DNA of 42,820 nucleotides. It comes from Mariprofundaceae bacterium (lineage in GTDB: Bacteria > Pseudomonadota > Zetaproteobacteria > Mariprofundales > Mariprofundaceae). The notes beneath the pieces are model-generated. The model ran no database searches. It was not told the DNA's origin and saw nothing but the letters and a program-made list of their open reading frames with translations. Location: positions 1-42,820 of the forward strand of contig JAUZQZ010000094.1 in assembly GCA_030950745.1 (NCBI GenBank), given 5' to 3'. This document shows, piece after piece, positions 6,600 to 29,190 of this stretch (position 1 is its first letter; the number at the start of each line of letters is the position of its first letter). Position numbers and translations under genes: made by a program.

Positions 6600-6834
6600 T
6601 AGTCCTGACTTTTACACACAAGTCGCGCGTTTGCAGCAAGGGTTGTTCCCTTGCAAGAGCGCGCAACGCAGGCAGATGGCCGCCGGACGGCTCGCCCGAA
6701 GGGAACCCTTGCACACGGGCCGTACCTGCGTTGCAACGCTTGCCGATGGAACAACCATTATCTGCGCATCGCACCTTGGTCTGACCCGCGCGCAAGGGTT
6801 CTGTGGCATGGCTTGTGTGTAAAAGTCAGGACTA
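6600..6834. mobile_element. Palindromic element E1 (MITE-like, TA-flanked)
   Basis: Perfect 23-bp TIR TAGTCCTGACTTTTACACACAAG (6600-6622 / 6812-6834); internal hairpins; core CTCGCCCGAAGGGAACC; no credible ORF. Confidence 0.75.
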
Positions 6835-7209
6835 ATCACCCAACAATTGGTGAATGGAAGCAAGCTCCTGACGAATATGATGCAATGTGTTCTGTGCCGA
6901 ATTCTGCTCTACCAACTCATCAATGTCACCATTGATCAGGCGTTTCTTGGCACCTTTGATGGTAAAGTTGAGATCATAGAGAAGATGCTTGATCTGTAAA
7001 ATAGCATAAATATCACGTTGACGGTAAAAACGCCGGTTTCCACTTTTTTTGACTGGTTTAATATGACGAAACTCTGTTTCCCAGTAGCGCAGCACATGAG
7101 GTTCAACATCACATATTTCGCTAACCTCCCGAATGGAAAAAAACAGTTTGTCGGGTAGATCGGGAACTGTAACGCCTGCATTGCGAAGCGTTTGAACCTG
7201 AACGTTCAT
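6832..7209 (-). CDS. MerR-family transcriptional regulator
   Basis: 125 aa; KLFFSIREVSEICDVEPHVLRYWETEFRHIKPVKKSGNRRFYRQRD; lies immediately after ihfA. Confidence 0.92.
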   Translation of the reverse strand: MNVQVQTLRNAGVTVPDLPDKLFFSIREVSEICDVEPHVLRYWETEFRHIKPVKKSGNRRFYRQRDIYAILQIKHLLYDLNFTIKGAKKRLINGDIDELVEQNSAQNTLHHIRQELASIHQLLGD

Positions 7210-7490
7210 TGATTTTCACCCAGCACTTGATTTTTCAGAAGCTGGCTTGCCCGAAAAGTTACAATCCGGCGTGAAGAAATGGTAATTTCATCCCCCGTCT
7301 TGGGATTTCGGCCCCGGCGGGGACGCTTGTTGCGTACCATAAAATGCCCGAATCCGGAAAGCTTGACATCCTCACCCTGCTCCAAGGCCTTGTGAACCAC
7401 ATCCAGAACCACGTCAACAATCTGACCGGACTCTTTTTTGGAGAGGCCGACACGTTCGTGAACGACTTTAGCGATTTCGGCTTTTGTCAC
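7206..7490 (-). CDS. ihfA: Integration host factor subunit alpha
   Basis: 94 aa; MTKAEIAKVVHERVGLSKKES...LSGFGHFMVRNKRPRRGRNPKTG. Confidence 0.93.
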   Translation of the reverse strand: MTKAEIAKVVHERVGLSKKESGQIVDVVLDVVHKALEQGEDVKLSGFGHFMVRNKRPRRGRNPKTGDEITISSRRIVTFRASQLLKNQVLGENQ

Positions 7491-7668
7491 GTGCTCCCCT
7501 CTTGTTATTACGGATGGTTAACTCACATTAGCTAGAAACCACTTGCGATATTAACCGGAACTTCTTGTTATGTCAAAGCTTTTAGACTTTCACCTTGAAG
7601 GAGGTGCTGTTATCAAAAATGTAAAACCTGCCATGCCGAATATGATCAGATCAGATACTCCTTCTAAT

Positions 7669-8652
7669 CTATGTGGAAAATGTTGCACGAAAACGACTCA
7701 TAAAGGCATCCAAATCCTTTTGTGGCAAGGCATTAATGCCGGCGGCAGCTTTCCGGCCACCACCGGTCGGAAATTGCCGGCATAGCTCATCGGCACCTTC
7801 TTTCAGAACCAGTGGCGCTCGTACGCTGATGCGGTATGTACCACGATTTTCTCCATCGCTTAATTGCATGGCAACAGCATGCGCACGCGTTGGATATCTA
7901 CGCGCCAGTTCGTTGCTGAACACCCCTGAAACCCGCCGGGCCCATGCTTCATCCGGTAATAAAAACAAAGCGGTAGAGGCATCCTCAAACTCCGGGGCGG
8001 TTTCCATAACCCGGCATCGGTCGTCATCCATACCCTTTCGCAGAACCTGGAATGCATCTTCCTCTTTAATAAATGCAAACGGATCTGAAAAAGGTTCCAT
8101 CCGCCGATACAGGTCAGATGGGTGGAAATAGAGGTCATCCACTGTGATGCCATAGCCATTGTAGTTTAGGCAATCACCCAATTGACACAGCTGTTGAAGT
8201 TGGCTCTGTTCCAGGTGGAGCACCGTAGCAGCATGGTTGGCGGCATCATGAAGGTTATCGCCAAAAGCTGCCACAACGGCCCATGGCAGATATTTATCCT
8301 GCAAATAGTGACTGACCAGCAGACTCGTACATACGTCCGGGGCGGTATTGATGTGCGCTTCCAGGTTGGGATGATCGGGAATATCACCGGCAAAGTGATG
8401 GTCAAACCAGAGTACCTTTATACCTCTGTCGAGCAGGTGTAACAGTGATTGACGATTCTGATCCAGTGAGATATCCAGGACACAGACAATGTCTTCCTGT
8501 TTGGCCTTTTTCCCGTCGGACACACACCTTAACAGACCAACATCCCGTTTAACGCCTGTAATCAGTTCGGATTTAACCGGGTTAGCCAGACGCAACTGAT
8601 GCAACGCACACAGCCCATCCGCATCACCATTAAACACATCAAATTGGGCCAT
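7669..8652 (-). CDS. DHH-family phosphoesterase
   Basis: DVFNGDADGLCALHQLRLANP, WFDHHFAGD, C-terminal GGRKAAAGIN (DHHA1-like). Confidence 0.85.
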   Translation of the reverse strand: MAQFDVFNGDADGLCALHQLRLANPVKSELITGVKRDVGLLRCVSDGKKAKQEDIVCVLDISLDQNRQSLLHLLDRGIKVLWFDHHFAGDIPDHPNLEAHINTAPDVCTSLLVSHYLQDKYLPWAVVAAFGDNLHDAANHAATVLHLEQSQLQQLCQLGDCLNYNGYGITVDDLYFHPSDLYRRMEPFSDPFAFIKEEDAFQVLRKGMDDDRCRVMETAPEFEDASTALFLLPDEAWARRVSGVFSNELARRYPTRAHAVAMQLSDGENRGTYRISVRAPLVLKEGADELCRQFPTGGGRKAAAGINALPQKDLDAFMSRFRATFST

Positions 8653-8668
8653 AAATTCTTATCCTGAA

Positions 8669-10021
8669 TTATTCAGAAGAAAGCGTAGACTCAATCAAGT
8701 CGGCAAGCCCCTGCCCGACATTGAGCATCATATCCTCATCTTCAGCTTCAACCATGATGCGCAATTTGAGCTCAGTGCCAGACATGCGCACGCTCAACCG
8801 ACCCTTGCCATCCAACCGTATTTCAGCCGCTTTCATGGCCTGCTGCACCTGCGGCTGCCCTGCCACATCCATGCGCCGGGGCAATACGATATTCCATAAT
8901 TTTTGCGGATACAGTTGCATGCCGGAAGCCAGTTCCGATAATGGCTTTTCCTGATCGCGCATGGCCGCAAGCAGTTGCAGTGCGGTCAACAAGCCATCAC
9001 CAGTGGTATTGCAATCCAGCATAATGATATGACCGGATTGTTCACCACCCAGATTACATCCCTTATCGCGCATCATTTCCAGCACATAGCGATCTCCCAC
9101 ACTGGCCCGATGCATGCCAAGTCCAAGTCCGCCAAGATAATGCTCCAACCCCATATTACTCATCAGCGTGGTCACCACGGCCCCGCCTGTCAGCCGATCA
9201 TGATGCAGCAACTGCTCTGCCAGAACCGCAATCACACGATCCCCATCCACGATAACGCCGTTGGCATCACAGGCAATCAGCCGATCTGCATCCCCATCCA
9301 GCGCAAAGCCCGCGTCCGCACCCGTTTCCACAACACGCGCACACATACCCGCCGGATCGGTTGAACCGCAAGCCAGATTGATATTATGGCCATCCGGTTC
9401 CGCATGCATCACCACAACGCCGCAGCCCAGTTCATCCAGCAATCTTGGCGCCACGTCATAGGCGGCGCCATTGGCACAATCCACCACCACCTTGAACCCA
9501 TCGAGACGGAAGCCGCGTGGCAGCGACGCCTTACAGAATTCCACATAACGACCACGCGCATCATCCACGCGGAAAGCCTTGCCAATATCGGCGGCATCCG
9601 GAAGGGGTGGCAGATCATCCAGGCATCGCTCAATCTCCTGCTCAATTTCGTCGGGTAACTTGAAACCATCCGCACCAAAGAACTTGATGCCATTATCTCC
9701 GGCTGGATTGTGGGAAGCGGAAAGCATCACGCCGGCATCCGCACGCAGACTGCGCGTCAAATAAGCTACGGCAGGCGTCGGTACCGGCCCGACCAGTAGC
9801 ACATTCATCCCCTGCGCGGTAAGCCCCGCGCACAATGCCGATTCAATCATATAGCCGGAAAGACGGGTATCCTTACCAATAAGGATGTGCGGCTGATGAT
9901 CCAGATGCCTGGTCAGGACATGCCCCGCCGCCCGGCCAAGCTTCAATGAAAATTCAGCCGTCATCGGTTCCTTATTCACGGTACCCCGCACCCCGTCCGT
10001 GCCAAAATAGCGCCGCATCAT
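8669..10021 (-). CDS. glmM: Phosphoglucosamine mutase
   Basis: YFGTDGVRGTVN, active-site MLSASHNPAGDNGIKFF, ALDGDADR. Confidence 0.96.
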   Translation of the reverse strand: MMRRYFGTDGVRGTVNKEPMTAEFSLKLGRAAGHVLTRHLDHQPHILIGKDTRLSGYMIESALCAGLTAQGMNVLLVGPVPTPAVAYLTRSLRADAGVMLSASHNPAGDNGIKFFGADGFKLPDEIEQEIERCLDDLPPLPDAADIGKAFRVDDARGRYVEFCKASLPRGFRLDGFKVVVDCANGAAYDVAPRLLDELGCGVVVMHAEPDGHNINLACGSTDPAGMCARVVETGADAGFALDGDADRLIACDANGVIVDGDRVIAVLAEQLLHHDRLTGGAVVTTLMSNMGLEHYLGGLGLGMHRASVGDRYVLEMMRDKGCNLGGEQSGHIIMLDCNTTGDGLLTALQLLAAMRDQEKPLSELASGMQLYPQKLWNIVLPRRMDVAGQPQVQQAMKAAEIRLDGKGRLSVRMSGTELKLRIMVEAEDEDMMLNVGQGLADLIESTLSSE

Positions 10022-10695
10022 TTTTTTCCTCTTTGCCGTTTCAGTTTATGCAACAACTTGCCACGCACAGTAAATTTGGTATTGGAGCCGACCAGCCGAA
10101 TACCTTTTCCGGTAGGGCTCTCAACGCCGACCTTCATCTCAAACGGCCCGACTTTGGCCTCGGGAAGCACTGCTGTTGTTTTTACATCCGAAAGCGCGTC
10201 CAGCCATACTTCGGGACCGGAAAGTACGGCTACAGATGGTGTTACCTGAACATCGACAGCTTTCCATCCTTCCTGCAACTCCAGACGCGGCTTGACTGCG
10301 ATCTCCCGTTTAACCACCCGGTCTATCTGCAATTGCAGCCGGTCCGGTTGCAGTTTCTCGATGGTTAGCCCCACAGGAAGACGAATGGCCGATACTTTCA
10401 ACGCCCGTTCCACCACACCTGGACCCTTCAACCCCGAAGCATCGAGTGGTACGCGTAAATCCGCATGTTCCAGACCGCTTAGTCTCGCCTGCAGACCCGT
10501 GACTGTGATACGCACATGGTCCGGCAGGTCATTCACAATCACCATGTCGGATGGCAGCCCCTGTACCTGCAACGGCACATCCATGCTCAAAGAACCAACG
10601 CCCTGTCCATGCACCTGTATCCAGAGAACAACCGCAATCAGGATGGCCAGCAATTTCAAACCGCTGGCTCGCAGGAATTGCATCGTCTTCACCAT
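10018..10695 (-). CDS. cdaR: YbbR-domain protein, CdaR-like
   Basis: N-terminal TM then YbbR-like repeats; lies between cdaA and glmM. Confidence 0.82.
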   Translation of the reverse strand: MVKTMQFLRASGLKLLAILIAVVLWIQVHGQGVGSLSMDVPLQVQGLPSDMVIVNDLPDHVRITVTGLQARLSGLEHADLRVPLDASGLKGPGVVERALKVSAIRLPVGLTIEKLQPDRLQLQIDRVVKREIAVKPRLELQEGWKAVDVQVTPSVAVLSGPEVWLDALSDVKTTAVLPEAKVGPFEMKVGVESPTGKGIRLVGSNTKFTVRGKLLHKLKRQRGKK

Positions 10696-11478
10696 CTAGT
10701 GTCCTGAAGCCGCCGTTTGCATGCCGACCTGTAACAGCCTCCGCATCAAACGGCTTCGCAGGGCGTTCCGATCCAGTGGATCGCTCACCTTCCCTTCTTC
10801 CGCCAAACGCACATGTCCTGATTCCTCGGACACGACAACAACCAGCGCATCACTCTCTTCAGTCAAGCCGATCGCGGCCCGATGGCGGGTGCCAAACTCC
10901 CCGGCCAATGCATTAGCCTGAGCAAGAGGAAGCAAAACACGGGCTGCCATTACCCTGCCATTCACCCCCTCCTGAGGCTGCACAACCACGGCACCATCAT
11001 GCATCGGCGCCTGGGGACAAAAAAGTGCCTGAATCACGTCGCTACGTACCGGTGCACTCATTTCCACACCCGATTCAAACAAATGCTTCAACCCCGTTTC
11101 ACGCTCAACCACCACCAACCCTCCCCATCCCCGGTGGGATAGTGCGAAAGCTGATTCGACCAGTGCATCGACCATCTCGATATGTGCGCCCGCAGTGGCC
11201 AGCGGATTTACTCCGACCCGCATTAGCGCCCGGCGTATTTCATGCTGGAACAAAACCACCAGAATAATGATAAAAGCCGAGAAGAAATGACCAAACATCC
11301 ACTCCACGGTCAATAGCCCGAAAAAACGAGCCAGTTCATAGACGACCACCACCACGGCCAGTCCGATAAGCATTTGCACAGCGCGCGTGCCGCGTATAAG
11401 CCGCAGGACGAAGTAGACCACCACTGCCACCAAAGCAATGTCTACGATATCGCGGATGCCAAAATACCAATTCCCCAT
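10696..11478 (-). CDS. cdaA: Diadenylate cyclase (DisA_N / CdaA type)
   Basis: Three TM helices then DAC domain; APMHDGAVVV (DGA) and GTRHRAAIGLTEESDALVVVVSEESG (RHR) motifs. Confidence 0.93.
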   Translation of the reverse strand: MGNWYFGIRDIVDIALVAVVVYFVLRLIRGTRAVQMLIGLAVVVVVYELARFFGLLTVEWMFGHFFSAFIIILVVLFQHEIRRALMRVGVNPLATAGAHIEMVDALVESAFALSHRGWGGLVVVERETGLKHLFESGVEMSAPVRSDVIQALFCPQAPMHDGAVVVQPQEGVNGRVMAARVLLPLAQANALAGEFGTRHRAAIGLTEESDALVVVVSEESGHVRLAEEGKVSDPLDRNALRSRLMRRLLQVGMQTAASGH

Positions 11479-11483
11479 ATCAA

Positions 11484-12338
11484 TCAGGATGATACGCCCG
11501 GACTGGATTCAGGCAAACAACAGCGTATTGCCGAAGCAATTTTTACCGCCCTTGCCTGAGTTTCTACATCATGTACGCGCACAACATCAGTGCCCGCATA
11601 AATGCATGCGGCGACGGCAACCGCCGTTTCAATCTCCCTGTCATTTACCCGGGATCCCGTTAATTCTTCAAGAAAAAACTTACGTGACACGCCCATTAGC
11701 ACTGGAAACCCCAGCTTTTTGAATCGGGGAATAGCTGCAATGAGAGCCAGATTATCCTCCAGTTGCTTGCCAAAACCGATACCGGGATCCAGCAGGATGG
11801 CATCTTCCCGAACTCCCGCAGCAACACATATCTCCACGCGGGCGGCAAGAAAAGCCTCTACCTCATCCACCACATCATCATAATGAACGTGATTTTGCAT
11901 CGTTGCCGGCGCACCTCGCATATGCATCAGGCATACATCCACATCCGCTTCCGCCACTATGTCCAGCGATGATGAATCTCCCGCCAGCGCGGTTACATCA
12001 TTCACCATCGCAGCACCGGCCACGATGGCCTGCCGCATTACCTCCGCCTTGGATGTGTCAATGGATACGCATACCTGCCTGTCGCACAATGCCTCAATCA
12101 CGGGAATAACCCGCGCCAGCTCCTCGCTTTCTGGAATTGCTTCTGATCCGGGCCGGGTAGACTCACCGCCAACATCAATGATGGCTGCACCCGCCTTCCA
12201 CATCTGTTCGGCATGTCTAACGGCACCATCAAGGGTGACATACATACCGCCATCCGAAAACGAATCGGGGGTGCAATTAAGCACCCCCATCATCCATGCA
12301 TCGCCATCGACTGGTGCAAACCAGCGGGATGGATTCAA
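11484..12338 (-). CDS. folP: Dihydropteroate synthase
   Basis: MGVLNCTPDSFSDGG, IDVGGESTRPGSE, DPGIGFGK. Confidence 0.95.
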   Translation of the reverse strand: MNPSRWFAPVDGDAWMMGVLNCTPDSFSDGGMYVTLDGAVRHAEQMWKAGAAIIDVGGESTRPGSEAIPESEELARVIPVIEALCDRQVCVSIDTSKAEVMRQAIVAGAAMVNDVTALAGDSSSLDIVAEADVDVCLMHMRGAPATMQNHVHYDDVVDEVEAFLAARVEICVAAGVREDAILLDPGIGFGKQLEDNLALIAAIPRFKKLGFPVLMGVSRKFFLEELTGSRVNDREIETAVAVAACIYAGTDVVRVHDVETQARAVKIASAIRCCLPESSPGVSS

Positions 12339-14261
12339 CTAGGCTTCCTGGCCTGCCCCTTTCGACGGCACATGCCCTCCGGTTTCATGTGCGGATGCGC
12401 TTGGATGCTCCGGCGGCTTGGGCTTTTTTGCACTCTTCTTCTCGGGACGATGCAGTGTTTTACCCGCCATCACCTGATCGATCTCATCATCTTCAAGTGT
12501 TTCATACTCAATCAGCGCATTGGCCAGCAGATGCAACTGATCAATATGTTTCTCAAGAATATTCTTTGCGCGGGCATAATTTCTATCAATCAGCTTACGC
12601 ACCTCGGCATCAATATCTTGTGCGGTCTTCTCGGAAATAGTCTGAGTCCGCGTCACCTCGCGTCCGAGGAATAGCTCGGCCTCGCGTTCGCCATATACCA
12701 TCGGCCCAAGCTCCTCCGTCATGCCCCACATCGTCACCATATTGCGGGCGAGTTGCGTGGCGCGCTCGAAATCATTGGATGCACCGGTGGTCATCTGTCC
12801 CAGCACCAACTCCTCGCCAAGACGGCCACCCATCATGATGGCAATCTGATCCTCCAAAAATTTACGGTCATGGTTGTATTTATCCTCTTCCGGCAACTGC
12901 AAGGTTATGCCAAGCGCCATACCGCGGGGGATGATGCTGACTTTATGCACCGGGTCAGCATGTTCCAGATTCTTGGCCACCAGCGTATGCCCACCCTCAT
13001 GGTAGGCTGTGGTTTTCTTCTGCTCATCAGACAACAGCATGGAGCGGCGCTCGGTGCCCATCATCACCTTGTCCTTGGCACTCTCAAAATCATCCTTACC
13101 TACACTGTCCGCACCAAAACGTGCGGCATTCAGTGCTGCCTCATTCACCAGATTGGCCAGATCTGCCCCGGAAAATCCTGGCGTGCCACGCGCCAACACC
13201 TTCACATCCACATCACTGGACAATGGCACCTGCTTCATATGCACGTGCAGAATCTCCTCGCGGCCATTCAAGTCCGGACGCGGCACCACCACCTGCCGGT
13301 CAAAACGCCCCGGCCTGAGCAATGCCGGATCGAGCACATCGGGCCGGTTCGTCGCTGCAACCAGAATCACACCCTCATTGGCCTCAAAACCATCCATTTC
13401 CACCAGCAACTGATTCAGTGTCTGTTCACGCTCGTCGTTACCGCCGCCAATCCCCGCGCCCCGATGACGTCCCATGGCATCGATCTCATCCATAAATACA
13501 ATGCATGGCGCATGCTTTTTGGCCTGTTCAAACATATCCCGGACGCGCGATGCGCCAACGCCGACAAACATTTCAACAAAATCAGAACCGGAAATGGTAT
13601 AAAACGGAACCTCCGCCTCACCAGCAATCGCCTTGGCAAGCAGAGTCTTACCGGTTCCCGGCGGGCCCACCAGCAACACTCCCTTAGGGATTTTGCCGCC
13701 CAGGCGGGTGAACTTCGACGGATCGCGCAGAAACTCGATGACCTCGGTCACTTCCTGCTTGGCCTCATCGCAACCGGCCACGTCATCAAACGTGATCTTG
13801 TTCTTTTTGTCCTCGTTCAGCAGTTTGGCGCGGCTCTTACCGAACGACATGGCACCACCACGCCCTCCCATGCCGCCACCCTGCATCTGGCGCATGAAAA
13901 ACACCCATACCGCGATCAGGAGCAGCATCGGGAACCAGGAAATCAGTATGGACAGGAAAAATGGTACCTCATCCGGTTTGCTCACATCCACTTCCACATG
14001 ATGATCAATCATACGCTGGGTAAGACCGGGATCGTCCGGGATCGTCACCTGATAGGTGCGCAAATCTCCCTGCAGGTTGCGGTATTGCCCGCTGATGTCA
14101 TGTCCCTTGATTTTGGCTGTCTCCACCATGCCACCATCCACTTTCTTAACAAAAGAGGAATATGACATGCTCTCACCCTGCCGTAGCGGTGGGTTAAACA
14201 TATTAAACAGGCTGATCATGGTAATCCCGATCACCAGCCATAACAGAAGATTCTTACCCAT
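12339..14261 (-). CDS. ftsH: ATP-dependent zinc metalloprotease FtsH
   Basis: [21 protein letters not shown] region, HEGGH zinc motif. Confidence 0.97.
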
Positions 14262-14320
14262 TTACCACCAATCCTTTCATTCTAAGATATTTTCTGATGA
14301 TCCCTTTCATCTTTCATGCT

Positions 14321-14349
14321 CTATAGGGTGTCGCTGCATGTATTTCAAG
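14321..14349 (-). promoter_or_regulatory. Sigma32-like promoter upstream of ftsH
   Basis: Minus strand CTTGAA-N15-CCCTATAG (-35 at 14344-14349, -10 at 14321-14328). Confidence 0.5.
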
Positions 14350-14451
14350 CGTTACAAACAATACAATCGCCAATAGCATAGGCTTTCAATATGAAGCCAT
14401 GATGAAATTGCATCGCCTTTTTTGACCTGCATTGTTCACAAATACTACCGC

Positions 14452-15453
14452 TTACCGATACAGACTTACCTCTGCTGCGGAAAGTTGCAAGTCTTTACCC
14501 CGATGCGACAGGCGACAGCGGGTCAGGTCAATTCCTCCCCGTCCGCCTTTCCGCAACCATGATTCAGCCAGTTCGATATGACGTCGGCCCAAGACAACAC
14601 CCCCACCAAAGAGCATGGCTATCATACGCTGTAATACGCATGCCCTGACAGATACGGGCATTTCCCGCCAGATATTCCATGACATGCTGACCACGCCTTG
14701 CCTCTGCTGAATTCCCGCTGCGCTGGCCTGTCTGTTCAGGATAACCGCAAGCCGGGATGCCTGCATTTGCCAGCGGCAAAACAAATCCGACGGATCAATA
14801 CCGTTTTTCTGAATATATGGGAAAAGATGATGCCGAATATGATTCCGCATCAATGTTGTATCCCGGTTACTCGCATCCTCCAGCCACCGGACATTTGCCT
14901 GGCGCAGTGCTGCCTTTAACATGGATTTAGACACTCGCAACAATGGCCTGACTATACTCAAATGACCCAGTTCCCATACTGGTTGCATCCCCGCACAACC
15001 CGCCACACCCGCACCTTGCAACATACGCATGCAAACGGTTTCAGCCTGGTCGTCCCGATGGTGTGCCAAACAGAGCGTTCTAATTCCCTGTGCTTCCGCC
15101 CAAAGCGCAAACTGCACATGCCGGGCCTTTCTCGCTGTTGCCTCACGGTTACTTGCAGATGTGGCGTTAACACTGGCGCTGTGAAATTCAATACCCCATA
15201 TATCCATCTGCTGTCTCAGGACATCTGCCTCTCTTGCAGAATCGGCACGCCAGCCATGATCCACATGCCATGCGATAACCTCATGTCCTGCATGATGCAG
15301 AGCCAGCAGCAAAGCGGTGGAATCGGCACCGCCTGAAAACCCAACGGCCAGGCGCTCCGGTAACCGGCAATCATCTAACCATGCAACCGCTTGAGACAGA
15401 AGTGGAACAGAATCAACCGAACTGGAATTTGATAAAGCTTCAACAGCAATCAT
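14452..15453 (-). CDS. tilS: tRNA(Ile)-lysidine synthase
   Basis: LAVGFSGGADSTALLLALHHAGHEV; HHRDDQAETVCMRMLQGAG. Confidence 0.92.
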   Translation of the reverse strand: MIAVEALSNSSSVDSVPLLSQAVAWLDDCRLPERLAVGFSGGADSTALLLALHHAGHEVIAWHVDHGWRADSAREADVLRQQMDIWGIEFHSASVNATSASNREATARKARHVQFALWAEAQGIRTLCLAHHRDDQAETVCMRMLQGAGVAGCAGMQPVWELGHLSIVRPLLRVSKSMLKAALRQANVRWLEDASNRDTTLMRNHIRHHLFPYIQKNGIDPSDLFCRWQMQASRLAVILNRQASAAGIQQRQGVVSMSWNIWREMPVSVRACVLQRMIAMLFGGGVVLGRRHIELAESWLRKGGRGGIDLTRCRLSHRGKDLQLSAAEVSLYR

Positions 15454-15471
15454 ATCATAAAGCAGGGAATA

Positions 15472-17622: not shown

Positions 17623-17645
17623 TTATTCCCCTCCCATTGATACCC

Positions 17646-17662
17646 TACCTTTTACAAAGGTA
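17646..17662. promoter_or_regulatory. Palindrome, candidate operator in the divergent region upstream of the znuA-like gene
   Basis: TACCTTT-TAC-AAAGGTA, perfect 7-bp arms. Confidence 0.35.
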
Positions 17663-19375: not shown

Positions 19376-20211
19376 GCGATTTTTTTGCCAGCGAAGTCAT
19401 GCGCGCCGCCCTGTTCCCGTCGACGCTGATTGCCATTGTTGCATCCGGCATGTCAGTGATGATTCTGGCGCACCGGCTGGCTTTCCTGGCAGTAGGCGTT
19501 TCCCATGCCACACTGGCCGGATTGGGTCTCGCCGTGGTGCTGGCTCTGCCACTTCTCCCCACAGCTGCGGCAACGGCAGTGATCGTCTCCCTGATGCTGG
19601 CGTCCATGCCACGCCATCGTGGCCTGAGTGACGATGCGGGAACAGGTGTTCTGTTTGCCGGTGCCATGGCGTTGGGCATCGTACTCCTCTCCACGGCAAG
19701 TAAATATGAAGTCGATCTGTTCGGGTTACTTTTCGGCAATATCCTTATGGTCTCGGAACATGATCAATACTGGCTGATGTGGGGAAGCGGTATGGTGATG
19801 ATTAGCCTGATATGGGCTGCACGCCCATGGTGGAGCATTGCCTTTGATGCCAAAACAGCCGCTGCATCCGGCCTGCCGGTTCACCTTTATCGATTGCTGC
19901 TGTATGCCATGGTCGGATTATCTGTCGTCATGTGCGTCAAGCTTGCCGGAATCGTGCTGACCACAGGATTACTCGTCCTGCCAGCGGCCAGCGCATGGTT
20001 TTGGGGCCGGGGACTGTTCGGTCTCTGGCTCATCAGCTTGCTTATATCCCTCACCGGCACATGGTTGGGTTTATTCCTCTCGTACATGCTGGATTGGCCG
20101 TCGGGTGCAACCGTGGTGTTGACGTTATGTGCTTTCTTTGGATTAAGCTGGGCTGGATCGTGGCTGAAGCAAGTCATCTTCAAAGGTTCGCCTCAAAGAA
20201 TATTTGACTAG
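19372..20211 (+). CDS. Metal ABC transporter permease (ZnuB-like)
   Basis: Multi-TM ABC-3 family; GTG start overlapping the ATPase stop. Confidence 0.88.
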   Translation: MSDFFASEVMRAALFPSTLIAIVASGMSVMILAHRLAFLAVGVSHATLAGLGLAVVLALPLLPTAAATAVIVSLMLASMPRHRGLSDDAGTGVLFAGAMALGIVLLSTASKYEVDLFGLLFGNILMVSEHDQYWLMWGSGMVMISLIWAARPWWSIAFDAKTAAASGLPVHLYRLLLYAMVGLSVVMCVKLAGIVLTTGLLVLPAASAWFWGRGLFGLWLISLLISLTGTWLGLFLSYMLDWPSGATVVLTLCAFFGLSWAGSWLKQVIFKGSPQRIFD

Positions 20212-20861
20212 GAATCTGTCTTGTCAGACTGCTTCAAGCCTTCCAGCGTTTCAAGAAAATGTGTCAGATTGGCAATCAGTAAGGAATATACCGCAATACC
20301 AAATGCCATGGTCAATGCTGCAATGATCCGACCCGCCTCCGTCACAGGTACAATATCGCCATAACCAACGGTCGTCAGAGTCACAAAAGCCCACCACAAC
20401 CCATCGCTGATACTGGAAAAAGATGGATTTTGATGATGCTCCAACAGATAGGTGCTGGTACCAAAAAGAAACACCATGCCGAACACAAGAGCCATTGCCA
20501 CGGGGAAACTGTCGCGTGACAATAAAATGAGTTTCAATAGCTGTACCCTGTGCTTGCGCATCAATCCGCCCAGCCGCAAGGCTGGCGCAAGCCGCGCAAA
20601 CCTGAAGGCCGTGAACAAACGCAATACCGGTGAGGCCAAAAGCACCACGAACACCAGATCAAGCCAGTTTCGGCGGATGTAACTCACCCGGTCGGAGGCA
20701 ATATGCCACCGCCACAAAAAGCAAAGGACAAACAGGGAAAGTATGGCAAGTTGCCACCAGTCCGGAGCCTCCTTCCGGAAGGACACCATAAATGCACCAA
20801 CCGTCAGCAGAAACAGCAGAACATCCAACCCTCTCCTCAACCAGACATTGGATGGCTCCAA
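20208..20861 (-). CDS. Voltage-gated-like potassium channel
   Basis: Six-TM pattern with selectivity filter LTTVGYGDIVPV. Confidence 0.88.
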   Translation of the reverse strand: MEPSNVWLRRGLDVLLFLLTVGAFMVSFRKEAPDWWQLAILSLFVLCFLWRWHIASDRVSYIRRNWLDLVFVVLLASPVLRLFTAFRFARLAPALRLGGLMRKHRVQLLKLILLSRDSFPVAMALVFGMVFLFGTSTYLLEHHQNPSFSSISDGLWWAFVTLTTVGYGDIVPVTEAGRIIAALTMAFGIAVYSLLIANLTHFLETLEGLKQSDKTDS

Positions 20862-20864
20862 GAT

Positions 20865-21132
20865 TAGTGTCCTGCCCCGAAGAAGAGCGCACCATCAGCG
20901 AGTTCTGGCGGGATGTGCGGCAAGGCGTGCAAGTGCAGGACTGGCCGTGGCCAATTCAAACGAGTGCAACGCAGCCGAACGCCCGCCAGCACTCGCCCGA
21001 AGGGAGCCATCCCATGGAGCCAATGCAGCGTTGCACCCCTTGCCAAGGGCACGCCATTGGCTGCGGGACGCGCCTTGCCTTGGTTCCATGGGATGGCTCT
21101 GATGGTATGCTCTTCTACGGGGCAGGACACTA
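20865..21132. mobile_element. Palindromic element E2 (MITE-like, TA-flanked)
   Basis: 34-bp TIR (31/34): TAGTGTCCTGCCCCG[A/T]AGAAGAGC[GC/AT]ACCATCAG; left arm 20900-20912/20982-20994; right arm 21004-21023/21080-21099 (19/20); core CTCGCCCGAAGGGAGCC. Confidence 0.8.
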
Positions 21133-21663
21133 GCCCTTGCCAGCTTTATTGGTGAAGTAGGTGGACAACGACACCAGCAGGATACCGCCACCCATGTACA
21201 GGATATTCAATGGACTATCGAAGGTAACATGCAGCACATTCTTGAAGAAGGCCACGACCAGAATCATCAGCACCACCTTGGCCAGGCGGTCCTTTAAATC
21301 ATCCAGGCTGTTAATCATCAGGATGTTGTTGGACTTTTCATCTTTATGGGCGATATCAATCTTGCTGATAAATAATTCATACAGACCAAGGCCGAAAATC
21401 AGCATCACCGTACCGAGCAGGAAATCATCAACGGCCGATATAATCTGCCCTACTGCCTCGACATGGTAATTTGGATACTCAACACCCATAAATGTTATTT
21501 CAATAAACTGCCAGGCCAGATGTAACATATTCTCCGCTGCCATCACAAACAGAAGCACCATGCCTATCAACGAGGAAAGAACTGCAAGAATGACCACGAA
21601 ACGGCTATTCCACAGGAGCCATTCAAATACTTTTTCAATCAATCCTTGCTGATTTTCTGCCAT
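21130..21663 (-). CDS. YqhA/UPF0114-family membrane protein (start trimmed to MAENQQ)
   Basis: RFVVILAVLSSLIGMVLLFVMAAENM; LGLYELFISKIDIAH. Confidence 0.8.
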   Translation of the reverse strand: MAENQQGLIEKVFEWLLWNSRFVVILAVLSSLIGMVLLFVMAAENMLHLAWQFIEITFMGVEYPNYHVEAVGQIISAVDDFLLGTVMLIFGLGLYELFISKIDIAHKDEKSNNILMINSLDDLKDRLAKVVLMILVVAFFKNVLHVTFDSPLNILYMGGGILLVSLSTYFTNKAGKG

Positions 21664-21715
21664 GTGATTACCCCTTTTTGGTTTGTTTCCAAATGCAAGC
21701 AAAAGAAGCGCCAAT

Positions 21716-21886
21716 TCAGGTAGTTTGGGCTTCTGTGTGCAAGGTCTCGCCATCCAGGGTCTCGTTATCGACCTTGCAACCAGTCTTTTGTTCGGCCAAA
21801 AGACATTGCTGTAATAATTTTACCGCTATCTCATCCGATGCTTCGATGTGCAACACGTATGTTCTCACATGGTGAGGTGGATACAT
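21716..21886 (-). CDS. Small ORF (56 aa), hypothetical
   Basis: Read manually: MYPPHHVRTYVLHIEASDEIAVKLLQQCLLAEQKTGCKVDNETLDGETLHTEAQTT*; absent from the ORF track (all listed ORFs are at least 60 aa). Confidence 0.4.
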   Translation of the reverse strand: MYPPHHVRTYVLHIEASDEIAVKLLQQCLLAEQKTGCKVDNETLDGETLHTEAQTT

Positions 21887-22096
21887 CAAACACCGAAAAC
21901 AGCTACAATATCAGTCTATCCTGCAATCACCTGGGTAGGCCCAGAAAACCTCATTATGCCAGACTGGAACATACAGAGATTTACCCGGCAAACCATCAAC
22001 AAACATACTAAAAAAGGTGCAGGTGCTGAATACGCCTATCACCATATGAAAAGAAGGTGTTTTGCATTCAAACTGATGCATCCAGTCTAGCAATAG

Positions 22097-22708
22097 TTAT
22101 GCCGGCCAGTCACCTGCCCCCTCCCGCATCAGCTCCGGGGCATCACCGCATAAGTCGATGACTGTGGTCGGCACCACGCCGCCCCAACCCGCATCAAGAA
22201 CCAGCATGTTCGATCCTTTGAGACAAGGGATAAACTCTTCAGGATCAGTCGCCGCATCCTGTTCACTGGGAAAAATCAGAGTGGTCGCCAGAAGCGGCTC
22301 TCCCAATTCCTGTAACAAATCCCTGCACACAGCATGAGATGGTATACGAATCCCCACATCATGACGTTTGCCGAAAATACGGCGTGGCAAGCCGGAATTG
22401 GCCGGAAGAATGAATGTGTACGGACCCGGCAAACAGCGTCTGAGCATACGATGTGCATCATTATTCATGCGCACATAACGGGCAGCCTGTGACAAATCCA
22501 GACACACCAGCGACCACCAGTGTTGTCTGTCCAGTTGCCGCAAGCGGCGTATCCCGGAAATCGCTCCGGAGGCATCGGGTAGCGCCATCAATGAATAAGT
22601 TGTCTCCGTCGGAATGACTGCTGCCACTCCCTGGCGCATATATTCGGCGGCGTGCCGGATAAGCCGCACTTGGGGACGCTCCGGATGCAACCTCAATCGT
22701 TCAAACAT
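22097..22708 (-). CDS. Sua5/YciO/YrdC-family protein
   Basis: GVAAVIPTETTYSLMALPDASGAISGIRRLR; LPGPYTFILPA; VGIRIPSHAVCRDLLQELGEPLLATT. Confidence 0.87.
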   Translation of the reverse strand: MFERLRLHPERPQVRLIRHAAEYMRQGVAAVIPTETTYSLMALPDASGAISGIRRLRQLDRQHWWSLVCLDLSQAARYVRMNNDAHRMLRRCLPGPYTFILPANSGLPRRIFGKRHDVGIRIPSHAVCRDLLQELGEPLLATTLIFPSEQDAATDPEEFIPCLKGSNMLVLDAGWGGVVPTTVIDLCGDAPELMREGAGDWPA

Positions 22709-22862
22709 CGGCTAACTCACACTTTTTATAAGACTGCGGATCTATGGCACCAGGCAGGCTCCATACAAGGTTTTTTTCTGCTAAAAAATCATAGACCGTT
22801 TGGATACCCGCACAGGCAGGCGCAGTAGATTTACCACAAGTCTGACAAGTTTCTTGTCTCAT
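22701..22862 (-). CDS. Small ORF (53 aa) with CxxC motif, translationally overlapping the Sua5/YciO-like gene
   Basis: Read manually: MRQETCQTCGKSTAPACAGIQTVYDFLAEKNLVWSLPGAIDPQSYKKCELADV*; its 3' end overlaps the downstream start by 8 nt. Confidence 0.45.
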   Translation of the reverse strand: MRQETCQTCGKSTAPACAGIQTVYDFLAEKNLVWSLPGAIDPQSYKKCELADV

Positions 22863-22874
22863 AAAAAATACGGG

Positions 22875-25295
22875 CTAAAATCCCGGAATCTTCAATTTCC
22901 GCAGAATCTGCTCAACCGGCTTCGCGGGAGCTTGTGATGGAGCCGGCGACGCATCCGGCGCCGGGTTCCCGGAAGCAGGACCTCCTTGTAAAACACCTTT
23001 CAGAATACCCTTCAATCCACCTTTTCCGCCCTTGAGGATGTCTTTGATATTCCCGACGTTCCCCATCAACGTTTTAATATCCATTTCTATCTTCACCCTG
23101 GGTGCATCCAGAGGCCCGATAATTCGAAGAGGAATCACCAATCCTTTTCTTGCGGTTTCAGTATCACCCTGCCCTGCCAGGCTTCCCACCAAGCGGGGTT
23201 TGACACGGTAATCCATGTTTTTTGCTACAAGGTCCACTTGTCCATAGCCGGTGAGGCGGAACAAGGGGGATGCCATGAATAAATCATCATTACTTGCCAC
23301 ACCGTTTTTAACCTTGAAACTTCCGGAAAGCTGTGAAAAATCAGTTTGTCTGGAACCGCCCTGCTGACCCGGCGCAATAACATTGCGCAACGTCCCCGCA
23401 ATATCAAAACCCTTGATCATACCATCGCGTAACAGCACATGGCCCGTTCCATTCAGGCTTTGTGTTGCTGTCTGGGGCAACAGGCCAACACCGCCCAACT
23501 TTGTATCCATCTGCATGATACCAGAAACCATATCTGTGCCCGCCAACGCTTTAAGCACCGGTTGCACCTGTACGCCGCGCACCTTTACTGACTCGGTCCA
23601 GCGGACAGGGTAGAGGCCTACATTCAAGCTGGCCTTCTCCCGGACCTGGCCGCCAGCCAGTTCAAACCGGAAAGGATTTATATTGAATGTTCCACGTTTA
23701 CCGGAAAGTGTGGCATGCAGATATGCCAGATCAAGCCCATGCAGGAACAAATGATCCACCTGCAACCCGGCTGTAACACGCCATGATTTCAGAAAGCGCA
23801 AATCCGGCTCCCTGACCGTTCCGGTATCGGCAGGCACGTTTGCGGTTTGTGGCTGGCCAATCCGTGCACCAGCGGTGTCAGTGTTCCGGCTTCCTGTTTG
23901 CTGTTGGCCGATTCTTGCACCTTCGGCATGGGCATAAGGTATAATCTTAATGCCCGGATCGTCATGAATTGCCTGAGAGACCTCGCTCTTTTCCGGCTGC
24001 GGCAACCACGGGTCTATATGCAGGCTTTTAGAGGCAATCCGTAACCGCACAACGGGGCCGGCTCCAAACCGGAAATTCCCGGAGGCCTGAACAAGCTCCT
24101 TATTCAGTATCAGTTGCAAATCACGCAATTCCACATGCTTTGCATCACCCGCAGCCAACAACCCCAGCTTAACCTGCTTCCAGGGGGCAGGGTGTGCGGC
24201 ATACAAAGCCTGCAAATCCGGCATCCATGCCGATAACTGCTCGCGGCTCAATGTTGGCGTATTAATACGCACCTGATACTGCAAGTCATGTCCAATACCG
24301 CGCACGAAACCTGTAATTTCCGCTGCCTTCTCTCCCTCCACACGCAGCACCACACGATCAAGCTTCATTCGATCCGGCTTCGGCATTTCAATCTTCCACG
24401 CCACATCCGCCTCATGTTCGCCATGCAGTGCAAGCGTGCCTGCCGTCACCCGCAAACCGTCCGGTCTCTGTTCAATTCTGACGTCCACCGCCAATGTGCC
24501 CGCACCCAGACCCGTCAGGGCCGGGATAAAAGCAGTAAATTTCGCAAGTGCAATGGATTTGGCCTGAATATCAGCCTGTAAAGGTAATTTCTCGACGTTA
24601 AATTCAGACAAATCTCCCAACGGCCCTACTTCCGCTTTTACGGAAAAATCATCGCCGGAGAGCTTCCCCGAAGCTTGTATATGCACCGGTTGATCAAGTT
24701 GTACACCATCCACCTCGATGCCAAATTCGCTCAGGGTAACGTCGCTCCCCGACCGTATATCCCGGTAATGCACCTCGCCGTTCAGCATACGCAGGGATTT
24801 CGCACTCAGGGCAACCAGAGAAGCGCCGCTTCCCGTTGGGGCAGGCACCAGCGTTCCGTTGTTCGCAGCACCCGTCGGTGTTTTCTCCTTCGCGGCAGGA
24901 AGCAGGTCTTCCCAGTTCCCGGCGCCGCTGGCATCACGTTCCAGCAACAGCTTCGGACTATCCAGCACAAAGCGTTTGATTTCGACCCGTTTACTCAACA
25001 AAGGTAACAATGCCAGACGCACATCCAGGCTTTTAACCTGCAAAAAATCCTCATTCGAAAAACCCTGGCGGTTGGTAATACGCACATCATCAAGACGCAC
25101 GCCCACCCATGGAAAGAATGAAGCATGCAATCCGCCTATCTCAACCCCGCGTCCCGTGGCCTGTTCGGCCTTCTCGATAATCAGCCCCTTATAGTGATTG
25201 ATATCGATAAAAAACGGGGCCGCAAGCAATGCCACCGCCAGCAAGACAAGAAGTATCAGACTATATTTGACGGTTTTCCTGGCGGCTTTATTCAT
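22875..25295 (-). CDS. AsmA-family protein
   Basis: N-terminal TM then DINHYKGLIIEKAEQATGRGVEIGG; C-terminal AsmA region LNGTGHVLLRDGMIKGFDIAGTLRN. Confidence 0.88.
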   Translation of the reverse strand: MNKAARKTVKYSLILLVLLAVALLAAPFFIDINHYKGLIIEKAEQATGRGVEIGGLHASFFPWVGVRLDDVRITNRQGFSNEDFLQVKSLDVRLALLPLLSKRVEIKRFVLDSPKLLLERDASGAGNWEDLLPAAKEKTPTGAANNGTLVPAPTGSGASLVALSAKSLRMLNGEVHYRDIRSGSDVTLSEFGIEVDGVQLDQPVHIQASGKLSGDDFSVKAEVGPLGDLSEFNVEKLPLQADIQAKSIALAKFTAFIPALTGLGAGTLAVDVRIEQRPDGLRVTAGTLALHGEHEADVAWKIEMPKPDRMKLDRVVLRVEGEKAAEITGFVRGIGHDLQYQVRINTPTLSREQLSAWMPDLQALYAAHPAPWKQVKLGLLAAGDAKHVELRDLQLILNKELVQASGNFRFGAGPVVRLRIASKSLHIDPWLPQPEKSEVSQAIHDDPGIKIIPYAHAEGARIGQQQTGSRNTDTAGARIGQPQTANVPADTGTVREPDLRFLKSWRVTAGLQVDHLFLHGLDLAYLHATLSGKRGTFNINPFRFELAGGQVREKASLNVGLYPVRWTESVKVRGVQVQPVLKALAGTDMVSGIMQMDTKLGGVGLLPQTATQSLNGTGHVLLRDGMIKGFDIAGTLRNVIAPGQQGGSRQTDFSQLSGSFKVKNGVASNDDLFMASPLFRLTGYGQVDLVAKNMDYRVKPRLVGSLAGQGDTETARKGLVIPLRIIGPLDAPRVKIEMDIKTLMGNVGNIKDILKGGKGGLKGILKGVLQGGPASGNPAPDASPAPSQAPAKPVEQILRKLKIPGF

Positions 25296-25975
25296 GGGGC
25301 TATCGTGGATGATGTGACCGATTGCCGCAAGGGTGGAAAGCGCACCCTCAGTTCATCAAAGCAATCCACAACACCTTCGGCTCCGGCACCCATCAGTGCA
25401 TCATGCGAACCTGCGCCAAAAGACACACCAATTGCGCGCACACCACAGGCGGTTGCCATCTGCATGTCTACGCATGCATCACCGACAACCGCAGTTTGTG
25501 CACGCTCCACGCCCATTTCCGCCATGCATTCATTCACCATTCCCGGATGCGGTTTGGACGGGCACTGATCTGCCGTCCGCCACACCATAAAAAAGCGGGA
25601 TAAATCAAACTCATCAAGCACGCGCCGTAGACCCGGCAGTGATTTCCCGGTGACAATGCCCAGGCCGTAACCCCGTTTCTGCAAGGTTATCAATGTAGAT
25701 CGAACGCCAACATGCAACCCGTGTTCGCTGGGCATATCCCGGTACAGTTTACGATAGGTGTTGGAAATTTTCCGCCGAGTTGTAATACCGGTATCCGGTA
25801 GTATTTGAGCCATTGCCGTATCCAGCGACAACCCGATTACGCCGGCAATTTTGGCATCATCAGGAACAGGTAACCCGCAGTCCGCAAAAGCATGCTGCAT
25901 CACGGCAGTGATGTGGCGATGGGAATCCACCAGTGTGCCATCACAATCGAACAGAATCAGGCGGGAATCCGTCAT
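25292..25975 (-). CDS. HAD-superfamily phosphatase (phosphoglycolate phosphatase-like)
   Basis: LILFDCDGTLVDSHRHI; GIVTGKSLPGL; VVGDACVDMQMATACGVRAIGVSFG. Confidence 0.87.
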   Translation of the reverse strand: MTDSRLILFDCDGTLVDSHRHITAVMQHAFADCGLPVPDDAKIAGVIGLSLDTAMAQILPDTGITTRRKISNTYRKLYRDMPSEHGLHVGVRSTLITLQKRGYGLGIVTGKSLPGLRRVLDEFDLSRFFMVWRTADQCPSKPHPGMVNECMAEMGVERAQTAVVGDACVDMQMATACGVRAIGVSFGAGSHDALMGAGAEGVVDCFDELRVRFPPLRQSVTSSTIAP

Positions 25976-26547
25976 GGCCTTTTTTTTGTATCCTGGCCGG
26001 TTTTTTTGGCGGGTTCACCCGTATCATGAGGCTTGGACGGTGGCGCTTTCCATGCATTTGGATTGCGCCTCACCTGCCAGACGAAGGACTTGTCCACGGC
26101 CAGCACTTCCGGCACTTGTCCGATGCGCACATACGTGGAAATCAGGTCACTTCCCTGTTTCCCCACTGTCAGGGTAAACAGCGCGGTATCTGTTTGATCC
26201 AGCAAGGTAAGTTTTGTGCCGTATTTCATTCCAAGCGTATCATCATGCGCATGCGTATGAGTGACCACGCGGACCACACGCATATTGGCTAGATTATTCA
26301 GTAAATGCCGTACCGACTCTTCATTGGCGGGTACGTCCGGCTTACCGGCCAGCATCCATTTCTCTCCCTCTTTTTTCAGATGCACAGGCGCTCTGGATGC
26401 AGGCGCAAGCTCAATGGCAGCAACCTTTGAAATATCCGGTATCTTTAAAGGCGCATACACCTGTGGTGCAAGTTCCGGCTGTGAGAACTGCCATGCGGAC
26501 CAGCCGATCAGAATCAACAATGCCACCCACAAAGCTGAACGCTTCAA
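25972..26547 (-). CDS. DUF4340-like protein of the Gld-type ABC locus
   Basis: 191 aa; N-terminal TM; last gene of the overlapping GldG/permease cluster. Confidence 0.6.
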   Translation of the reverse strand: MKRSALWVALLILIGWSAWQFSQPELAPQVYAPLKIPDISKVAAIELAPASRAPVHLKKEGEKWMLAGKPDVPANEESVRHLLNNLANMRVVRVVTHTHAHDDTLGMKYGTKLTLLDQTDTALFTLTVGKQGSDLISTYVRIGQVPEVLAVDKSFVWQVRRNPNAWKAPPSKPHDTGEPAKKTGQDTKKRP

Positions 26548-28139
26548 GCCACAGTCTCCAATGAACGAAGCTTACGCCAGCGCCACAGGCCCATAACCAC
26601 GATGAACAATGGCAAAGCAAACATCCACAGCCCCTTATACATGGAGCGTTCATTCTTGGTCAGCGTCGCCAATGGCCGCTCAATCACGCCGCGCGAGCGC
26701 AAATCAATCAACCCCTCGTTACCGGCCAGCCAATCCAGCGTATTGAGTACAAAGACCAGATTACTACCGCTCATAAACTGATCGTCCAACAGTGAACGGC
26801 TGCCCACCACAAGCACACGGGAATGCTCCGTACTCGCAATATGTTTTTTTGTGACAGATACGCCTTTTAGTGGACCGGAAAATGCAGATTTGGCCACACC
26901 CTGCTCAAACAACGCCAGATTCACTTGTCTGCGCGTCAGGCCATCGAATCGTTTGCTCATGGGCACAAGAGGATCAACATCATAGGGCGGTCCGTTCTCG
27001 ATGGACGCCATCACGGATGATGTCAGCAACACGTCGCCATGCGGACCATCTCCGGTCCATGCCAGCGGCGAAGCAAAGGGTACGGATACGACTTGCAGCC
27101 CATGCGTAATCGGATTGCTCTCATCCATACCTTCCACTTCCGCCACAAAGGGATAATCCACCACACTGTTGAACACGAGCATGCCACGCCGCTGATTAAC
27201 GTTGATGCGCGCCGCTCGCGGATCCATGACCAGCCCCGGCTCCACCGCAATACCAAAGTCCTTCAACCACGTATTGGCCTTAGCCTCCACGCTCTTCACC
27301 GTAAACCCCTGACTAAGCTGCGGATCGACATTGCCGGCAAGAATGAGCAAACCCCGGCCCGACATACGGAACTGATCCAGCGCATAGCGTTCAATTTCAG
27401 ACGGTGGCTGGTCAAACCCGGCCACGATGACCGCCCTGATATCCTTGTCGATGGCCTTCTTGTCCGGCTCGACCATGACCAGTTCGTAGTCTTCCGATAC
27501 CTTTTGCTTAAAGCTTCGCAACCGGACCAGGTCTTTAGCGCCAAACCCGGCCACCACGCCAATCTTCACACGGCCTTTACCGGTCAATCTCCTGATTTTA
27601 CCCGTTAGCAGATATTCAAACCCCTGCTCGCCGCGTACCACGGGAATGGTTTCCTTTTTATTCAGATATTCCACCACCACGGCCATGTATCCCTGCTTGA
27701 CCTGCGCCTGATCGTTTTCGACGACCTGAACCTGAACCTTGGGAATCTTTAGCGCCGCCAGTGATGCCGCCACATTGGGATCATCAGCGGGGTCAACAAT
27801 CTCAAAACCAACCTTGCCGTGCCCCGCCTCGTGATAGGAGCGCAGCATATCAGCAACAAAGCGCCTCAACTGGCCGTATGGCTGCGGTAAATCCCGTGTA
27901 ATATAGGCACGGATCATGACGGGCTCATCGAGTTTATCCAGAACGCCACGGGTGGAATCCGACAATGTGTACATCCCATTTTCAGTCATGTCCCAGCGAA
28001 GATGCAAAGCGCTCGCCGCCACGGTGATGGCGAATGCGGCCAGCAAGGCCGTCAGCAGCGTAAACCATGCCTTACGGCGGATACTTTTCCTGCGATCCGT
28101 TCCGGGCACTAATCTCCTGTCCCGGGACATTACGTCCAC
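26544..28139 (-). CDS. GldG-like ABC-type auxiliary protein
   Basis: 531 aa with TM at both ends; AASALHLRWDMTENGMYTLSDSTRGVLDKLDEPVMIRAYITRDLPQPYGQLRRFVADML. Confidence 0.85.
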   Translation of the reverse strand: MDVMSRDRRLVPGTDRRKSIRRKAWFTLLTALLAAFAITVAASALHLRWDMTENGMYTLSDSTRGVLDKLDEPVMIRAYITRDLPQPYGQLRRFVADMLRSYHEAGHGKVGFEIVDPADDPNVAASLAALKIPKVQVQVVENDQAQVKQGYMAVVVEYLNKKETIPVVRGEQGFEYLLTGKIRRLTGKGRVKIGVVAGFGAKDLVRLRSFKQKVSEDYELVMVEPDKKAIDKDIRAVIVAGFDQPPSEIERYALDQFRMSGRGLLILAGNVDPQLSQGFTVKSVEAKANTWLKDFGIAVEPGLVMDPRAARINVNQRRGMLVFNSVVDYPFVAEVEGMDESNPITHGLQVVSVPFASPLAWTGDGPHGDVLLTSSVMASIENGPPYDVDPLVPMSKRFDGLTRRQVNLALFEQGVAKSAFSGPLKGVSVTKKHIASTEHSRVLVVGSRSLLDDQFMSGSNLVFVLNTLDWLAGNEGLIDLRSRGVIERPLATLTKNERSMYKGLWMFALPLFIVVMGLWRWRKLRSLETVA

Positions 28140-28840
28140 CTTCGGCGTTCAAGCTGAAAATGTGCCGCAGCAAGAAACGCGCCGCACAGGGCCAGAAGAA
28201 ACACGACGTCTCCCAGATGCACCACGCCGCGCAGCATGCTCTGGTAACGTGAAAGCGGACTCATGATTTCCAGCATGTTCTGCACGGAGGGCGAGAACAA
28301 TGGCGCAGCCTGCGCCAGCAGAAATACAGCCAGCAACAAAGACAGCCCCAGCACATAGGCCACCACGGCATTACGGGTCAGTGAGGAGGCAAAGATACAA
28401 ACTGCCGTATAGAATGCCGCCAGGAGCAGCGCGGCCATATAGGAAGCGGCGATCTGGCCGGCATCAATATTACCCAGTGTGGCCAGACTAAGCGGGTAAA
28501 CAAGCGTAAATCCAAGCAACACAACCACTTGCAGCAAAACCGCCAGATATTTCCCCATTACAATCTGTATGGCGCTGACAGGTAAGGTGGCCAGGAGTTC
28601 AAAGGTTCCACTTCGTTTTTCCTCCGCCAGTGACCGCATGGCCATGGCGGGAATAAAAAATATCAATAAAACAGGAAAAATGGAAAAGAAGCTGCGCATT
28701 TCAGCTTGTCCCATCAAAAACAATCGATTGCCAAAGAAGAAACCTGCGGCCAGCAGAAAGGCCACCGCAATCACATAACCCAGCGGCGTATCCACTGCCG
28801 TGCGCCATTCCTTCCAGATGAGAGTGGAGATTTGGCTCAT
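28130..28840 (-). CDS. ABC-2 type permease (GldF-like); start trimmed to MSQISTLIWKEW
   Basis: Multi-TM; EEKRSGTFELLATLPVSAIQIVMGKYLA; the longer ORF start at 29038 lies inside element E3. Confidence 0.88.
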   Translation of the reverse strand: MSQISTLIWKEWRTAVDTPLGYVIAVAFLLAAGFFFGNRLFLMGQAEMRSFFSIFPVLLIFFIPAMAMRSLAEEKRSGTFELLATLPVSAIQIVMGKYLAVLLQVVVLLGFTLVYPLSLATLGNIDAGQIAASYMAALLLAAFYTAVCIFASSLTRNAVVAYVLGLSLLLAVFLLAQAAPLFSPSVQNMLEIMSPLSRYQSMLRGVVHLGDVVFLLALCGAFLAAAHFQLERRRWT

Positions 28841-28878
28841 AAAACCGGCCTCATAAAATCGGGGGTCATGGGTTCTCT

Positions 28879-29190
28879 TAGGGCCTGTTAACACTAATTG
28901 TGAGCGAGACGACGGGGTCATTTTTGTGGCTATACAAGGCATTCCGAGCGCAATGTGCCCGAGGCACATGAGCGAGACATAACGCAGCAGGGCACAAAAA
29001 TGACCCGTCCCGCAGGGCGGCGTCCCAAATAAGGCCATTCGGCGTTACTCCCCCAGGGGACTCTCTCTTGCACAAGTGCAATTCACCTTGTCGTCGTTCA
29101 TTTGGATTTACCAAACTTCTCTCCTCGCGCCTTGACTGGCCTTGTTTGGGACAGCAGCGCCTCATTCACAATGAGTGTTAACAGGCCCTA
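28879..29190. mobile_element. Palindromic element E3 (MITE-like, TA-flanked)
   Basis: 25-bp TIR TAGGGCCTGTTAACACT[A/C]ATTGTGA (24/25); left arm GGGTCATTTTTGTG 28915-28928/28993-29006; right arm GTCCCAAATAAGGCCA 29022-29037/29137-29152 (15/16); core CCCGCAGGG 29009-29017. Confidence 0.8.

Follow-up and report, generated by a model that had tools for sequence, protein, structure and literature searches.

Short palindromic elements of a Mariprofundaceae contig, a probable superfamily with a conserved folded core and the ends of different transposases

Contig JAUZQZ010000094.1 of a Mariprofundaceae bacterium (assembly GCA_030950745.1; positions 1 to 42,820, the whole stretch analysed being called the 43-kb window) contains three short palindromic elements, E1, E2 and E3, with different terminal inverted repeats (TIRs) and one layout. 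The questions raised by this locus are whether the three are related, how they came to lie where they do, and what has kept their fold. As described below, they probably belong to a superfamily of non-autonomous elements derived from insertion sequences (IS), possessing a conserved core and the ends of different transposases.

The coordinates, TIRs, TA ends and central CCCG[A/C]AGGG that an initial annotation had assigned to E1 to E3 were found in the sequence as described. The layout consists of an outer stem, arm A, a CCCNNNGGG mini-hairpin, and an inverted arm B, with about 265 bp between the TA flanks. Arm A aligns with the reversed arm B, both being mostly 88–91 nt long (a hairpin of ~89 nt), and CAAGGC, GAG, an apical hairpin and AACGC are conserved in the arms. 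Arms were scored with R1, a covariance model built from E3-type arms alone, the E3 copy of the window being excluded. The features are as follows, with the mini-hairpins placed by sequence and E3 by searches for its end and copies.

6600..6834, no strand: E1, palindromic, shortened copy; TIRs 6600–6622 and 6812–6834, TA flanks
6708..6796, minus (arm sense): E1 arm B, 89 nt; R1 27.7 bits, E 5.6e-5
6695..6703, no strand: E1 central mini-hairpin CCCGAAGGG
20865..21132, no strand: E2, palindromic, IS630-type ends; TIRs 20865–20898 and 21099–21132
20902..20992, plus: E2 arm A; R1 26.9 bits, E 9e-5
21008..21095, minus: E2 arm B; R1 37.2 bits, E 1.4e-7
20996..21004, no strand: E2 central mini-hairpin CCCGAAGGG
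28879..29190, no strand: E3, palindromic, IS5/IS427-type ends TAGGGCCTGTTAACACTAATT
28916..29005, plus: E3 left arm, the B-type arm of the family; R1 72.7 bits, E 2.8e-17
29022..29152, minus: E3 right arm (A-type), with an insertion at ~29050–29090; R1 match 29065–29152, 40.2 bits, E 2e-8
29009..29017, no strand: E3 central mini-hairpin CCCGCAGGG

The left arm of E1 is damaged in the window, and other E1 copies have 267–269 bp between their TA flanks. The window copy of E3 is 312 bp long, with ~41 bp extra in the right arm by comparison with 266-bp copies, the usual length of E3-type elements being 263–267 bp. The extra piece (~29050–29090) matches many short repeats in this genome and its relatives and looks like a separate repeat.

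In the window, R1 detected both arms of E2 and the right arm of E1 (E values from 1.4e-7 to 9e-5), showing that the single architecture proposed in the initial annotation is shared far beyond chance. Elsewhere, it matched further E1 and E2 copies in both arms and a fourth TIR family, E4 (end TAATACCTTCATAAATAAA), in one. The accompanying statement that hardly any primary sequence is shared went too far, as E1 and E2 are ~70% identical over ~115 bp and all arms have CAAGGC...AACGC. Arm types were also found mixed: E1-like arms sit between the E3 ends of L178 and L264, and plasmids of Pseudomonas and Azotobacter carry hybrids that combine an E3-like arm with an E1-like one. Three unrelated palindromes, alike by coincidence or convergence, would account for the unlike TIRs, which are those of different transposase families, but such an origin is hardly credible in view of the arm-model E values (to 1e-7), the hybrids, and the constant arm length, spacing and total length.

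In the E3-type element at L180 (687–949), the two arms stand in a changed order, suggesting an exchange of arms between elements. A hairpin of ~27 bp, AAGGGCAYTTCCTTCGG, interrupts E3-type elements at L129, L172, L225, L237 and L253, either centrally or within an arm; its carriers are Thiodiazotropha and a relative of the host genome, and it is perhaps a repeat unit of even smaller size.

Paired E3-type ends were mostly 263–267 bp apart, but 823–824 bp apart in five loci and 798 bp in one. The longer loci encode proteins with PF13340 and PF01609, of IS5 family NF033580, and the E3 ends are the ends of IS5-family (IS427-type) insertion sequences of 823–824 bp with TA on both sides. On a Cupriavidus plasmid, an IS630-family element has one terminus identical to the E2 end over 18 bp and, at its other terminus, an inverted copy; the E2 ends are IS630-type transposon ends. 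The suggestion in the initial annotation of non-autonomous elements with ends for a TA-target transposase is thus borne out, and both of the families it had named, IS630 and IS5, were right, for E2 and E3, respectively. The E1 TIR gave 14 matches in viral contigs, none of them paired. TA flanked both sides of 49 of the 62 E3-type elements and 7 of the 12 E2-type copies, with mostly YTA at the left and TAR at the right of E3-type elements, and the end variants G[GA]GYCTGTT and relatives all bounded elements of ~265–275 bp. These are very probably mobile elements with borrowed ends.

At L103 near 1501 (G024:C9), an E3-type element has an E2-type element inserted at its terminal TA, a nested arrangement that fits TA targeting. 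In Desulfovibrio, L171 (1784–2009) and L216 (4007–4371) had E3 ends around a different, arm-less interior; E3 ends thus occur with other cargo too.

Partial or full copies in the same genome numbered at least eight for E1, eight for E2 and six for E3, the best of them sharing 84–86%, 81–91% and 67–90% identity, respectively. Of 74 genomes from the family of the host, 39 had E3-type matches and five had E1 matches, and E2 was found in five of the 61 relatives searched. A scan of 399 Pseudomonadota genomes from 212 genera, counting an arm at E <= 1e-4, gave arms in 118 genomes and 58 genera, including 64 of the 325 genomes outside the family of the host. A covariance-model search, of the kind that the initial annotation had proposed, recovered arms beyond the window, in the host genome, its relatives and other Pseudomonadota. 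An exact search of species genomes with the 21-bp E3 end, totals of which are lower bounds, gave at least 117 stretches in Gammaproteobacteria, Zetaproteobacteria, Burkholderiales, Desulfovibrio and Verrucomicrobiota. In the relative G005, many contigs (C2, C26, C46, C47, C76 and C96) break ~90 bp inside an E2 element, a sign that E2 copies there are numerous, recent and almost identical.

Pairing was counted in an alignment of 32 oriented E3-type elements, drawn from several bacterial groups, over 92 pairs each present in the folds of both strands. Standard pairs occupied 91% of cells versus 74% in shuffled data, and double-sided changes were observed at 74 of the 92 pairs (524 cells) versus 45 (171 cells) in shuffles; the signal was lost when partners were slid by 1–3 columns. 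The result was repeated in A4, a set of 146 distinct arms, although A4 was fitted to the model. Near-identical copies had 2.6 single-sided changes per copy pair and almost no double ones, and the share of double changes rose from 0.01 below 5% divergence to ~0.5 at 25–35%, as expected if spreading lineages restore pairing. Template-switch (quasipalindrome) correction is established in bacteria and produces compensatory changes, and ordinary miniature inverted-repeat transposable elements (MITEs) could in principle be kept perfect palindromes by it, with a fold that has no function. However, residues of the motifs that are unpaired are also conserved, and double changes come only after single-sided ones.

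The bearing of mismatches on this question depended on the strand read. Counted along the element strand, GU and AC were equal in E3-type elements (97:98), with 14:22 in E2, as template-switch correction would have it, and a strand-symmetric DNA palindrome, the reading given by the whole-element strand test, was rejected after the arms had been oriented individually. Read in arm sense over lower stems of 16 nt, and scored without preference between GU and AC, E3-type arms had 80 GU and 25 AC, with the excess in both inverted arms (22:8 in arm A and 58:17 in arm B). The equality is therefore a cancellation, and since an arm-oriented excess is not the product of a duplex-symmetric process, we regard template-switch correction as an improbable source of the fold. 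The excess was smaller with 20-nt stems (78:49), because the end positions reach the internal loop; a tRNA control gave 13:0. The arms of E1, E2 and E4, which lay outside model building, gave GU and AC at 53:8, or 26 arms to 2, and 17 arms to 2 after relatives of >75% identity were dropped. Mutation bias of genome context cannot cause this skew, as the context of either arm is opposite to that of its partner in the same element. Of 142 arms, 126 were more stable on the sense strand, although this does not hold throughout the window, and with DNA parameters the figure was 127 of 141 arms; E1 arm B folded at -44.8 kcal/mol in arm sense versus -31.6 kcal/mol on the opposite strand. The arm-oriented excess indicates that what is maintained is the arm folded as a single strand, and it is quite likely that selection acts on this strand, with one sense per arm. 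Selection on structure, as proposed in the initial annotation, is thus supported by compensatory change and by strand-specific wobble. Inversion of the arms places one sense arm on each strand of an element.

Both RNA and single-stranded DNA tolerate G-U or G-T better than A-C, so the wobble data do not separate them, and we lean only slightly towards RNA. The arms might instead be folded single-stranded DNA, exposed in replication, transfer or transposition and recognised by a protein in the manner of attC sites or the end hairpins of IS200/IS605. The lower cost of G-T than of A-C suits such a role, as does the persistence of the arms across elements with unrelated TIRs; moreover, the core is borne by the element, so that selection must favour the element. 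No candidate binding protein was found, and a DNA role would not need the siting at 3′-ends of genes described below. We know of no requirement for internal hairpins in IS5 or IS630 transposases. A DNA fold is a serious possibility, to which we give about one chance in three.

The elements lie at the ends of genes, and a further candidate was observed near E1, as follows.

6832..7209, minus: MerR-family gene, the TAG stop of which is the E1 end
21130..21753, minus: UPF0114 gene, the TAG stop of which is the E2 end
29178..30185, minus: ABC-transporter ATPase gene, the last codons of which (R-A-C-stop) come from the E3 TIR
5688..5792, plus: candidate decayed solo-arm element; R1 17.5 bits, E 0.033

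In at least 12 relatives lacking E3, the ATPase and permease genes lie within ~30 bp of each other or overlap, and the pair is parted by E3 here. Of the copies and empty sites that the initial annotation had asked for, the former were found and the latter at the level of genes. Lack of copies, lack of empty sites and a core no more frequent than chance had been named there as grounds for dismissing the family, and the opposite was found of each. Among 88 elements with distinct flanks, 27 of the 47 genes reading in ended at the TAG of the element, versus an expected one third; insertion at a stop codon spares the protein, and selection against harm may explain this excess. Orientation relative to the upstream gene was random (18:13), consistent with one sense arm per strand. 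The solo arm at 5688–5792 lies between two minus-strand genes and is akin to copies L311–L313 of the same genome (near 1501–1605), with which it forms a separate family of ~142 bp having ends GTAACTGCTCAGG and the same CAAGGC...AACGC arm. Further solo arms were observed at L306 and L307.

Promoter-like sites were not found in E1 or E3, and terminator and own-promoter readings were rejected for want of such sites. In Rfam, zero families reached the gathering score; below it, only generic hairpin matches were obtained, among them microRNA families and AaHKsRNA41 (on both strands), which were rejected as such. A structured regulatory or small RNA with its own promoter, merely repeated in the genome, would explain the strong covariation; we consider it very unlikely, given the absence of promoter-like sites and of an Rfam family, the TIRs and TA flanks, and the random orientation.

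Under the preferred reading, IS5- and IS630-type transposases would move the elements in trans, with cleavage at the TIRs and YTAR sites as targets, and the elements would often insert at a stop codon or just past one. Least certain is the last step, in which folded RNA in read-through transcripts might make insertion at a 3′-end tolerable in either orientation, through processing or stability; on the same data, a single-stranded DNA fold could be used in transposition or replication.

Several points weigh against this reading. A transposase of E1 was not found. Neither a DUF4096 (IS5) nor an IS630 transposase was detected in the host genome (1.89 Mb, 146 contigs, completeness 88.6%), in which the initial annotation had expected one to be sought; the helper is thus absent today or is encoded in sequence that the assembly lacks. 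Transposition was not observed but deduced from sequence, and the empty sites are seen at gene level rather than base level, the relatives being different genera. The three solo arms with co-directional neighbours (L307, L312 and window 5688–5792) all have their arm sense opposed to the genes, a poor fit to a role in mRNA, though three cases are few, and a point in favour of single-stranded DNA. Finally, the GU and AC counts were taken over related sequences, which makes their p-values too small.

MITEs are usually seen as neutral leftovers of one parent IS. One fold conserved over large sequence divergence, different transposase ends and strand-specific wobble together point to a selector beyond the transposase. 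A tentative extension, which we think possible but doubtful, is that the ~89-nt arm is a transmissible folded module whose single-stranded structure is itself under selection, which some factor of the host or of the element recognises, and which has been joined repeatedly to unrelated transposase ends (IS5, IS630 and at least two more) while spreading in Pseudomonadota. The arm model permits annotation of such elements, for which public plasmid records, e.g. of Pseudomonas and Azotobacter, have none.

No description of the core was found in the open-access literature searched. Among known systems, ISAba31 (IS5 family, IS427-type) has inverted repeats GGGTGTGTTGACACTT and AAGTGTCAACAGACCC (PMC4776018). 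IS427-type insertion sequences resemble E3 and its variants in their ends (G[GA]GYCTGTT...), duplicate 2 bp of target and encode a PF13340 transposase, whereas the elements described here encode nothing and are filled by the two-arm core. The RUP element of Streptococcus pneumoniae is 107 bp long, with IS630-Spn1 proposed as its mover (PMC2229807). Like E2, RUP is non-autonomous, targets TA and has ends matching an IS630-family element, but it is confined to a single species, a two-arm core is not reported for it, and its 107 bp compare with ~265 bp here. A Correia motif, CAAGGCG..CAACGC, may resemble that of the arms; an approximate Correia consensus had no match in phages. Correia/NEMIS elements of Neisseria are short, have TA ends, and give stable hairpin transcripts with reported RNase III processing (PMC2649163, PMC10969869). 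They are similar to E1 to E3 in short length and in TA at the ends but belong to one genus, and their TIR pattern, TATAG[CT]GGATTA... (PMC2649163), is unlike that of the TIRs of E1 to E3, none of which has it. CIR repeats of Caulobacter and Brucella comprise two long inverted repeats, forming two arms and a linker (PMC2229807), a layout like that of E1 to E3, but they are marked by GANTC at the terminal loop, which occurs in some arms only here. Pae-1 of Pseudomonas aeruginosa is intergenic, with paired adjacent stem-loops and structures predicted on both strands (PMC2267715); compared by description only, it has a similar stem-loop pair in 84 bp versus ~265 bp. As in MITEs, E1 to E3 are short and non-coding, with TIRs and a TA target duplication, and ends matching an autonomous element were found for E3 (IS5) and E2 (IS630) and not for E1. 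An interior taken from the parent IS, which is common in MITEs and not required, is lacking, and the arm core spans the ends of two IS families. E1 to E3 are thus elements of the MITE kind, the interior of which is not derived from one parent IS.

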